55,456 nucleotides of DNA, taken from contig NZ_BLAE01000009.1 of assembly GCF_009687865.1 (NCBI RefSeq), forward strand, positions 116,042-171,497, given 5' to 3'. The notes below the pieces were generated by a model. The model saw nothing but the letters and a program-made list of their open reading frames with translations. It made no database searches and was not told the origin of the DNA. Positions 16,804 through 50,572 of this stretch are shown one piece after another. Numbering within the stretch: the first letter of the stretch is position 1; each line of letters starts with the position of its first letter. A program made the translations under genes and the position numbers. Source of the DNA: Acrocarpospora macrocephala (GTDB lineage Bacteria > Actinomycetota > Actinomycetes > Streptosporangiales > Streptosporangiaceae).

Positions 16804-17673
16804 ATGAAGCGGCTACTGAGACGGCAGGACCCGGCGGAGATCGCGGCCGAGGCGGCGGGCGCGATGGCACCCGCGGCGGCCCCGCCCGTCGAACCTGACC
16901 TCGCGGCTGCGGCGTTCTTCGACGTGGACAACACGATGATCCGTGGCGCGTCGATCTACCATTTCGCCCGGGGGCTGGCCTCCCGTGGCCTGTTCACCAC
17001 CCGCGATCTGGTGCGTTTCGCGTTCGGGCAGGCGATGTTCCGGGTCAGGGGTGACGAGAACCCGGAGCATGTGGCCAAGGCCAAGGAGATGGCGCTCGCC
17101 TTCGTCGCGGGCCTCAAGGTGGAGGATGTGGTCCGCCTCGGCGAGGAGATCTACGACGAGGTGATGGCCGACCGCATCTGGTCGGGCGCCCGCGCCCTCG
17201 CCCAGGCCCACCTGGACGCCGGCCAGCGGGTCTGGCTGGTCACCGCCACCCCCGTGGAGCTGGCCCAGGTGATCGCCCGCCGCCTCGGCCTCACCGGCGC
17301 CCTCGGCACGGTCGCGGAAACCGACTCCGGCGCCTACACCGGCCGCCTCGTCGGCGACCTCCTGCACGGCCCCGCCAAAGCCGACGCCGTCCGCGCCCTG
17401 GCCCGCCAGGAAGGCCTCGACCTGACCCGCTGCTCCGCCTACAGCGACTCCGCCAACGACCTCCCCATGCTCTCCATCGTCGGCCACCCCTACGCCATCA
17501 ACCCCGACTCAGAACTCCGCGACCACGCCAAAGCCCAGGGCTGGGCCATCAAGGACTTCCGCACCGGCCGCAAAGCCACCATGATCGGCCTCCCCGTAGC
17601 CGCCGCCGCAGGCGCGGTGGCAGGCGGCGTCGCCGCCGGAATAGCCCTCCGAAAGCATTACAGAACCCACTAA
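16804..17673 (+). CDS. HAD-IB family phosphatase (SerB-like) with C-terminal hydrophobic segment
   Basis: A 289-residue HAD hydrolase. Motif I FFDVDNTM (Asp40, Asp42) is nucleophile and acid. Motif II is VTATPVEL, and the motif III/IV region is [11 protein letters not shown]. The cap region resembles phosphoserine-phosphatase-like HAD-IB proteins. A C-terminal Ala/Gly-rich hydrophobic segment ([21 protein letters not shown]) suggests membrane association. The same family is found in this block in M. tuberculosis (serB1) and Streptomyces. The substrate is not known; phospho-lipid head groups are possible because an acyltransferase gene is next door. The gene ends against a very large inverted repeat. 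Confidence 0.9.
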
Positions 17674-17679
17674 GGGTTA

Positions 17680-17900
17680 CTCGCCGTTATCCGGCGCCGT
17701 TTACCTCCGCGCTGCGTCTCGCCGCACCGGCGCCAAGAGGGACCTCCCGGCCGAGAGCCAACAGCCAATGCCGAGAGCCAAGAAACCGCCCGGCCGAGAG
17801 CCAACAGTCAATAGTGTGCGTGGAGTCGATGCCTCGGCCCCTTTTGGCGCCGGTGCGGCGAGACGCATCACCTGCGTGAACGGCGCCGGATAACGGCGAG
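17680..17900. repeat. 221-bp composite inverted repeat with internal direct repeats
   Basis: Two perfect paired arms are visible: 17680-17701 with 17879-17900 (22 bp) and 17713-17736 with 17844-17867 (24 bp). An 11-nt unpaired internal loop separates them on each side. The 107-nt interior holds a 24-bp direct repeat beginning CCCGGCCGAGAGCCAACAG (17746-17769 and 17789-17812, one mismatch) and a partial third copy at 17770-17781. It fills the gap between the convergent HAD and acyltransferase genes. It could act as a two-way terminator or be a MITE-like or dispersed structured element. No ORF is inside it. Confidence 0.85.
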
Positions 17901-17913
17901 GAGCCTGGTGCGT

Positions 17914-18720
17914 TCAGCGGTGGAACGCAGGGCCGCGGCGCTCGCGTAGGGCGTCGAGTTGGTGTTGGAGGGTTTCGCGTACCTGGTCGGTGAGGTTGAA
18001 GACGGTCATGGGGTCGTCGGCGTCGCTGGGGGTGGTTTTGATGGGTTCGCCGAACTCGATCAGCCATTTGGAGGGGAGCGGGATCAGGCCGAAGGCTCCC
18101 AGCCAGGGGAAGAACGGGGTCATCGGCAGGTAGGGGAGGCCGAGCATGCGGGCGAGCAGGGTGAAATCGCCGATCTTCGGGTAGATCTCCTCAGCGCCGA
18201 CGATCGCGCAGGGGACGATGGGGACGCCGGCGCGCATGGCGGTGGACACGAAGCCGCCCCGGCCGAAGCGTTGCAGGCGGTAGCGGTGGGTGAAGGGTTT
18301 GCCGACGCCTTTGAAGCCTTCCGGGAAGACGCCGACGAGTTCGCCCTTGCGGAGCAGGCGGTCGGCGTCTTCGGGGCAGGCGAGGGTGTGGCCGAACTTT
18401 CTGGACAGGTGGCTCAGGGTCGGCAGGCGGTAGACGAGGTCGGCGGCCAGGAGCCGTACGGCGCGGTGAGCTTCGTCGTGGAGGCAGACCTGGAGCATGA
18501 GCGCGTCCAGCGGAAGCGTGCCGGAGTGGTTGGCGACGATCAGCGCGCCGTCGGCGGGCACATGCTCGAGTCCGGAGGTCTCCACCCGGAACCAGTGCCG
18601 GTAGAGCGGGCGGAGCAGCTCCAGCAGGACGGTGTCGGTGAGTTCGGGGTCATAGCCGAACTCGTCCACCTCGTAGTCGCCCGAAACCCGCCGCCGGACG
18701 AACGCGAGCAGCTCTTTCAC
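17914..18720 (-). CDS. Lysophospholipid acyltransferase family protein (PlsC-like)
   Basis: A 268-residue acyltransferase of the PlsC superfamily, probably transferring acyl groups in phospholipid or glycolipid synthesis at the membrane. Motif I reads VANHSGTLPLD, which places the Asp six residues after His rather than the usual four. The motif III region is VFPEGFKGVGKPF, and motif IV is PIVPCAIVGAEE. The block homologue in M. tuberculosis lies beside galE2, as here. The ATG overlaps the SDR gene stop by 4 bp, so they are co-translated. The 3-prime end abuts the 221-bp inverted repeat. Confidence 0.88.
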   Translation of the reverse strand: MKELLAFVRRRVSGDYEVDEFGYDPELTDTVLLELLRPLYRHWFRVETSGLEHVPADGALIVANHSGTLPLDALMLQVCLHDEAHRAVRLLAADLVYRLPTLSHLSRKFGHTLACPEDADRLLRKGELVGVFPEGFKGVGKPFTHRYRLQRFGRGGFVSTAMRAGVPIVPCAIVGAEEIYPKIGDFTLLARMLGLPYLPMTPFFPWLGAFGLIPLPSKWLIEFGEPIKTTPSDADDPMTVFNLTDQVRETLQHQLDALRERRGPAFHR

Positions 18721-49367: not shown

Positions 49368-49604
49368 GTGAAAGGGGATCGAGTAGAAATCGTCATCGAC
49401 GCCGGCGGCACCCCGCGCACCTACGAGGTCGTCGCGACCAAAGCCGGCCGCCGCGTCGAGGTAACCACCGGCCGCAGCATCGTCGAAGTAAGCGAAGTAA
49501 CCCGAAACGGCACCCCCGTCCGCACCGCCCGCTTCATGTCCAACCGCATCCTCGCCCTCGTCGAGCACCCGGTGGACGGCGGTCCCACTCCCCTCGGAAC
49601 CTAG
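49368..49604 (+). CDS. Small conserved hypothetical protein (beta-rich)
   Basis: A 78-residue protein, KGDRVEIVIDAGGTPRTYEV, then RRVEVTTGRSIVEVSEVTR and FMSNRILALVEHP. Alternating hydrophobic residues suggest a small beta-barrel. I recall similar short proteins in actinobacteria but no function. GTG 49368 is the likely start; ATG 49341 would add nine residues but lacks a ribosome-binding site. Its stop overlaps the convergent SPFH gene by 4 bp. Confidence 0.6.
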   Translation: MKGDRVEIVIDAGGTPRTYEVVATKAGRRVEVTTGRSIVEVSEVTRNGTPVRTARFMSNRILALVEHPVDGGPTPLGT

Positions 49605-50572
49605 GAAGAAGGACGGTCGATCTGACCGTCCTGCCGAGGGTTGACCGCGTCCCGCGGAGGTTCTACCGCATCACGCGGAGGGCTGAAGAGGCCGCCCAGG
49701 TTTTCGAGGGCGCGGCCCATTTCGGAGGGGACGATCCAGAGTTTGTTGGCGTCGCCCTTGGCGATTTCGGGGAGGGTTTTGAGGTACTGGTAGGCGAGGA
49801 GGCGGTCGTCGGGGGCGCCCTCGTGGATGGCTTTGAAGACCATGGCGATGGCGTCGGCCTCGCCCTTGGCGCGCATGGCCTTGGCTTCGGCTTCGGCCTG
49901 GGCGCGGAGGACGGCGGCTTCGGCTTCGCCGCGGGCCTTGAGGACGGCGGCTTCGCGTTCGCCCTGCGCGGTGAGGATGGCGGACTGCTTGTTGCCTTCC
50001 GCGGTGAGGATGGCGGCGCGTTTGTCACGGTCGGCGCGCATCTGCTTCTCCATCGAATCCTGGATGGAGGCAGGCGGATCGATCGCCTTGAGCTCGACCC
50101 GGTTGACGCGGATGCCCCATTTGCCGGTCGCGTCGTCCAGCACCCCGCGCAGCTCGGTGTTGATCTCCTCGCGCGAGGTGAGCGTGCGCTCCAGATCCAT
50201 CCCGCCGACCACGTTCCGCAGCGTCGTCACGGTCAGCTGCTCCACCGCGACAATGAAGCTCGCGATCTCGTACGTGGCCGCTTTCGGGTCGGTGACCTGG
50301 AAGTAGATGACCGTGTCGATGGAGACGACCAGGTTGTCCGAGGTGATCACCGGCTGCGGCGGAAACGTCACCACCTGCTCGCGGAGATCGACCTCGACCT
50401 TTATCCGGTCGATGAACGGCACCACGATGTTCAGACCCGCGTTGAGGGTCCGGTGGTAGCGACCGAAACGCTCCACGATCCTGGAGGTGGCCTGCGGCAC
50501 GATTCTGATCGTTCTGGCCAGGGCAAATCCCGCGACACCAACCACGATCAGGGCGGCGATGAGCTCAACCAT
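49601..50572 (-). CDS. SPFH/band-7 (slipin/HflK-like) membrane protein
   Basis: A 323-residue SPFH protein. One N-terminal membrane helix (MVELIAALIVVGVAGFALA) precedes the band-7 domain (ATSRIVERFGRYHRTLNAGL, VDLREQVVTFPPQPVITSDN). A long Ala/Glu/Arg-rich coiled coil (EGNKQSAILTAQGEREAAVL) is followed by a tail with duplicated PPRDAVE/PRDAVN words. SPFH proteins build membrane scaffolds and often regulate proteases; an NfeD partner is not in view. ATG 50572 has GGAG seven bases upstream. The further open frame to 50668 is not used. Confidence 0.92.
   Translation of the reverse strand: MVELIAALIVVGVAGFALARTIRIVPQATSRIVERFGRYHRTLNAGLNIVVPFIDRIKVEVDLREQVVTFPPQPVITSDNLVVSIDTVIYFQVTDPKAATYEIASFIVAVEQLTVTTLRNVVGGMDLERTLTSREEINTELRGVLDDATGKWGIRVNRVELKAIDPPASIQDSMEKQMRADRDKRAAILTAEGNKQSAILTAQGEREAAVLKARGEAEAAVLRAQAEAEAKAMRAKGEADAIAMVFKAIHEGAPDDRLLAYQYLKTLPEIAKGDANKLWIVPSEMGRALENLGGLFSPPRDAVEPPRDAVNPRQDGQIDRPSS

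Follow-up and report, generated by a model that had tools for sequence, protein, structure and literature searches.

The closest described systems are the REPs, known mostly from Proteobacteria, which are reported in the main text of PMC3733652 to occur for the most part downstream of coding regions, where the neighboring genes are convergent or codirectional, and whose GTAG members have termini that often provide a TAG stop codon. No word beginning with "actino" occurs in that main text. Inverted pairs of such short palindromes, able to form one long hairpin and dispersed over the genome, are described as REPINs in PMC2817692.

The window analyzed here is a stretch of 55,456 nucleotides from the 12.1-Mb genome of Acrocarpospora macrocephala (G000; the congeners are G001 to G004, with G001 the nearest). 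It contains a 221-bp palindrome, at positions 17680-17900, between two convergent genes (Table 1). The outer and inner arms are perfect complements with 11 unpaired nucleotides per side between the two pairs, and both coordinates and complementarity agree with the symmetric internal loop described in an earlier note on this DNA. The inverted-repeat search recovered arms of 70 nt with 84% identity. The folding z-scores of the palindrome on the two strands are -11.75 and -11.50, values that no shuffle among 200 reached on either strand, and a 20-nt pattern from the arm, searched with at most three mismatches, matched its own two places only (expected 0.02). The nested direct repeats noticed earlier are present, together with a 12-nt partial third copy (17770-17781), but the supposed 24-bp repeat is a not quite perfect one of 28 nt (17742-17769 and 17785-17812, 93% identity); the 12-nt interior repeat has three matches, a number reached in 4 of 100 shuffles, and is weaker evidence than the arms. 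At gathering scores, the Rfam 15 covariance models matched nothing in the window, and the tRNA scan found no tRNA.

Table 1. Features of the palindrome locus (positions in the window).
Feature	Position	Strand	Basis or remark
HAD-like hydrolase gene, 289 aa	16804..17673	+	ORF; Pfam PF12710, E 1.3e-31
Unit A	17675..17743	-	3' of HAD-like hydrolase gene; nhmmer E 1.5e-19, profile includes unit A
Outer arms, 22 bp	17680..17701 / 17879..17900		Perfect complements, read from sequence
Unit A hairpin, 5-nt loop (CGCCG-N5-CGGCG)	17682..17696	-	Sequence; consensus fold of 45 units
Unpaired stretch, part of unit A variable spacer	17702..17712	.	One side of internal loop
Inner arms, 24 bp	17713..17736 / 17844..17867		Perfect complements, read from sequence
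Unit A hairpin, 3-nt loop	17720..17732	-	Sequence; consensus fold of 45 units
Interior direct repeats	17742..17812	.	Not seen in orthologous interiors
Unit B	17836..17905	+	3' of acyltransferase gene; nhmmer E 1.8e-21, profile includes unit B
Unit B hairpin, 3-nt loop	17848..17860	+	Sequence; consensus fold of 45 units
Unpaired stretch, part of unit B variable spacer, other type	17868..17878	.	Sequence, alignments
Unit B hairpin, 5-nt loop GATAA	17884..17898	+	Sequence; consensus fold of 45 units
Acyltransferase gene, 268 aa	17914..18720	-	ORF; Pfam PF01553, E 5.2e-21

A blast search of G000 with a 231-bp piece returned, among the best 40 of 140 candidates, one full-length match and dozens of matches to a single arm, and the repeat unit is therefore one arm. 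The 221-bp palindrome is two inverted copies of a dispersed repeat of about 65-70 bp, forming a BIME-like inverted pair, and exists because each of the two convergent genes has a unit of its own, unit A lying 2 nt and unit B 9 nt beyond the stop codons (profile model edges; stops at 17673 and 17914). The conserved halves of the repeat make up the 22- and 24-bp arms, and the 11-nt loop corresponds to its variable spacer, which differs in type between the two copies. The view of the 221 bp as one composite element has to be abandoned: of the 79 G000 sources in the placement sample (78 genomic stretches and the window, 96 units), 66 hold a single unit, 7 have same-strand neighbors, and only 4 (L067, L069, L209 and the window) have an opposite-strand neighbor within 500 bp. 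The profile search of the window returned units A and B, with the next-best match at E 0.045. A further unit match lies at G000:C9:172191-172259, about 700 bp past the window end.

With a sequence model built from 45 units and a cut-off of E≤1e-3, G000 contains at least 107 unit matches among the best 150 of 23806 first-look candidates. At least 91 were found in G001, 149 in G003 and 5 in G004 (best 150 candidates each, a ceiling that the G003 figure reaches), and at least 49 in G002 (best 80 candidates, stricter filters than for the other congeners). The genome-wide search for the arms proposed in the earlier note thus finds other copies, and the sequence is neither unique nor lacking in conservation.

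On the unit strand the core approximates TTGGCGCCGGTGCGGCGAG-spacer-AACGGCGCCGGATAACGGCGAG, comprising two tandem hairpins, CGCCG-N3-CGGCG and then CGCCG-N5-CGGCG, with loops of 3 and 5 nt; the hairpin borders in the alignments are GG, and mostly AG or GG. One core length is shared by 126 of the 145 cores from G000 and G001. Stem letters are nearly invariant and loop letters tend to differ by genus; most loops measure 3 or 5 nt, with some of 6 nt in genus g65. Near-invariant stems across genera combined with varying loops, as well as the many dispersed sites, would also suit double-stranded binding sites for a nucleoid or chromosome-organizing protein, as would the outcome of the base-pair covariation check suggested earlier, which revealed no compensatory pair changes in the consensus fold of 45 units. 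Such a duplex role is nevertheless highly improbable, given the tie of the units to stop codons described below, the different palindrome spacings (3 versus 5), which fit hairpins better than one dimer, and the excess of G.U-type over A.C-type changes. Among 140 distinct cores of G000 and G001, stem changes on the unit strand comprise 77 G.U, 24 A.C and 47 other mismatches, with 46 of the 77 G.U changes at one pair in each stem of what are related copies; the 121 standard-length cores have 69 G.U versus 12 A.C. Hairpins are preferred over a duplex dimer site because the loop lengths are unequal and the stem changes on the unit strand keep G.U pairing.

Most units lie 3' of genes and show an orientation bias relative to the stop codon. 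According to gene calls made by a crude, unvalidated script from GC content by codon position, 2 of the 96 G000 units fall within genes and 94 are extragenic, of which 49 lie between convergent genes, 38 between codirectional ones (19 each way) and 3 between divergent ones, with one side unknown in 4. With a cut set after the distances had been seen, a facing stop codon lies no more than 37 nt away for 50 of 71 right ends and 10 of 69 left ends. In G001 (50 units, 40 stretches) a facing stop within 49 nt was found for 22 of 35 right versus 5 of 37 left ends. Genus g65 (32 units in 25 stretches, 2 within genes) has 17 of 30 units between convergent genes and the same stop-facing bias, 15 of 23 (two overlapping a gene call) versus 4 of 23. 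In G034 of genus g31 (19 units in 15 stretches, 2 within genes), 10 of 17 units follow the stop of one gene and precede the start of the next, codirectional one, and facing stops occur within 33 nt of the right end in 5 of 6 cases and within 49 nt of the left end in 1 of 13.

Longer inverted repeats, each containing a unit, were observed at L334:1556-3699 (588 bp, 99%) and L323:1621-3594 (462 bp, 93%) of G070 and at L318:1613-3149 of G112 (176 bp, 73%). They flank an ordinary gene, of the inositol monophosphatase family, SnoaL-like and MerR, respectively, and no transposase was found among the called genes.

Since many units occupy terminator positions, 1-37 nt after stops, they could be a lineage-specific terminator, made of tandem hairpins without a U-tract, that was selected in place and whose copies arose through gene conversion and not through mobility. 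We regard this as unlikely, as the core lacks a following T-run in both orientations; the terminator scan of the window gave three sites, all outside the hairpin cores. The comparison of orthologous loci bears on the same alternative from both sides. In G002 and G003 both units of the window locus are kept, each soon after its stop codon, despite interiors unrelated to that of the window, as a terminator selected in place would predict. In G001, with 98% identity on one side of the locus and 96% on the other, the sequence corresponding to window 17673-17922, including both units, is missing and the two genes directly adjoin each other without an intervening unit, which argues against it; by parsimony we infer this absence to be a loss. 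G004, with 5 genome matches among the best 150 candidates, has no unit at the window locus.

Because the units are kept in relatives while the interior is unrelated, the interior is filler. Alignment of the G000 and G002 interiors did not exceed shuffles in either orientation. Between the two units of L195 (G003), at about 2240-2440, several copies of a tandem repeat of about 30 bp, unlike the window interior, were seen by eye. The spacers of A and B appear swapped relative to G002 (crosswise 14/19 and 15/19 identities, in place 8/19 and 11/19) and to G003 (crosswise 13/19 and 14/19, in place 8/19 and 7/19), which may reflect a flip of the interior or gene conversion.

Gains and losses were followed at other loci of the close pair. 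A unit is shared with the corresponding G000 locus at 19 of 40 G001 loci examined; 18 of the remaining 21 were sought in G000 by their joined flanks, and 14 pairs were aligned. Six clean-break loci, chosen because G000 looked empty, were traced into G002 and G003, a choice that informs on the occurrence of gains and not on their frequency. By alignment and profile search, units are present there in G001 only (0 of 6 loci in G000, 0 of 6 in G002 and 0 of 5 readable ones in G003), implying probable recent gains in G001. Among the other eight aligned pairs, a partial unit remains in G000 in two (L345 and L346), and a remnant arm is present in G000 at the L258 locus; some differences are therefore losses. 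A direct repeat seen by eye around the L258 insert, 14 nt long in G001 and 13 nt in G000, is single-copy in G002 and G003; this pattern suggests that an insertion preceded a deletion in G000. Orthologous loci also differ in unit number, L209 (G000) having 4 and L260 (G001) 2, and L211 1 and L245 2; units at these loci are spaced about 113 and 134 bp apart.

The six gains are evidence against terminators selected in place, as is the persistence, seen by eye, of a native hairpin after the stop codon beside the units at two loci. In favor of that alternative, window 49580-49648 has a plain 8-bp hairpin (GGACGGTC..GACCGTCC) where the G001 ortholog (L275:1521-2038), about 450 bp longer, carries a unit immediately behind the stop codon. 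The opinion of the earlier note that the palindrome is no ordinary terminator, but rather a repeated non-autonomous and possibly mobile element, is borne out by the many copies in G000 and by the presence or absence of units among relatives.

MITEs are characterized by terminal inverted repeats and a target-site duplication at insertion. About half of the units occur in a longer form of about 128 bp with terminal inverted arms near CTTAGARCGCCYAACAGAATG, and these could be MITEs, reduced DNA transposons that a DDE transposase mobilizes in trans. Both arms were matched in 33 of the 145 units of G000 and G001, the right one only in 37 and the left one only in 15, against 0.2, 4.4 and 3.6 per 145 with shuffled flanks; by eye, the arms often extend to the neighboring stop codon. 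These copies and the presence or absence between relatives recall MITEs, as does the candidate 4-nt CTAA duplication at one locus. In contrast to MITEs, 60 of the 145 units, including both A and B, match neither arm. The arm pattern has 18 matches in the genome versus 6 for the reversed control, 16 of the 18 beside a known unit, and the same search found no correctly oriented arm pair around a transposase-sized gap, and thus no source transposon. The length of the inserts is not constant, being 125, 204, 254, 292, 356 and 461 bp at the six loci, where candidate target duplications, of unequal length, were seen by eye at two (CTAA and 14 nt). Because of the variable insert size and only two candidate duplications, no defined transposition event is established, and we consider a MITE nature of the long form quite improbable.

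The two-hairpin architecture extends beyond the genus. A further model, R2, built from 19 sequences and containing both hairpins, matched 27 of 120 Streptosporangiaceae genomes (E≤1e-3, best 45 candidates per genome, high counts being lower bounds). Three genera are rich in matches: Acrocarpospora with at least 45, 40 and 45 (2 in G004), g31 with at least 45, 37 and 28, and g65 with at least 36, 43 and 44. Elsewhere, G013 and G124 have 9 each, G125 has 6, G084 has 4 and the remaining matched genomes 1-2. At 80 loci of other genera covering the acyltransferase ortholog region, the unit model yielded 16 hits with E≤1, the best at 0.0073, and the hairpin-pair pattern gave three, in L127 and L135 of Planobispora, elsewhere in the locus, and in L129, with two substitutions. 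Weak blast matches from other genera, none better than E 1.5e-4, were taken as chance. A possible but doubtful further step is that a mobile double hairpin would be inserted in an oriented manner after stop codons and copied by a non-RAYT, one-strand mobilizer, its architecture having been amplified separately in at least three Streptosporangiaceae genera, with loop letters of its own in each.

Overall, each unit consists of two tandem palindromes that can form hairpins and whose register is nearly constant; the units occur in many copies, and close relatives differ through gains and losses of them. They probably represent a new REP/BIME-like family of short extragenic repeats, with a presumed hairpin role at 3' ends and spread by a putative mobilizer. 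Under this REP/BIME-like reading, units would insert at gene 3' ends through a putative mobilizer that would recognize the hairpins of one strand; after insertion, they would supply transcripts with a stable GC-rich 3' hairpin, which could hinder 3' exonucleases or antisense read-through, while inverted unit pairs would be unstable and become deleted or partly exchanged. From the position of the units we infer a putative RNA 3'-end function. Having gained and lost units at orthologous loci, the closely related G000 and G001 offer a means of testing the question.

No prior description of this repeat family was found among the open-access papers listed, including PMC12306157, PMC4681348 and PMC6006769; a table of PMC12306157 names three Actinomycetota. 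On the best reading, the family is new and its kind, REP-like, is already known. To our knowledge, none of these three Actinomycetota belongs to Streptosporangiaceae. The unit alignments contain neither the unpaired GTAG head at the hairpin end typical of the GTAG super-family nor the unpaired CGTC head and CCA-like tail that define the CGTC super-family in the main text of PMC3733652. As a lead only, the REPs of Escherichia coli and Salmonella quoted in PMC2817692 have GGATAA or CCGGATAA in common with the unit.

The resemblance to REPINs lies in the inverted pair of short palindromes, able to fold into one long hairpin, within a genome-dispersed family (PMC2817692). The difference concerns the RAYT, a Y1 transposase whose gene is flanked by the repeats in REPIN/REPtron systems: in a search of six genomes, G000-G003 of the genus among them, Y1_Tnp proteins (PF01797) gave two matches in G000, two in G001, one in G002 and none in G003, which nevertheless has at least 149 units, and no units occur at the five Y1 loci of G000-G002. 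From REPs and BIMEs the unit differs in consisting of two tandem hairpins in nearly fixed register. The general characters of REPs are present, namely a short palindrome in high copy number outside genes, with a preference for 3' ends and rarely between divergent genes, and the units share with REPs and BIMEs (PMC3733652) their short palindromic nature, high copy number, extragenic location near gene 3' ends and occurrence as inverted dimers.
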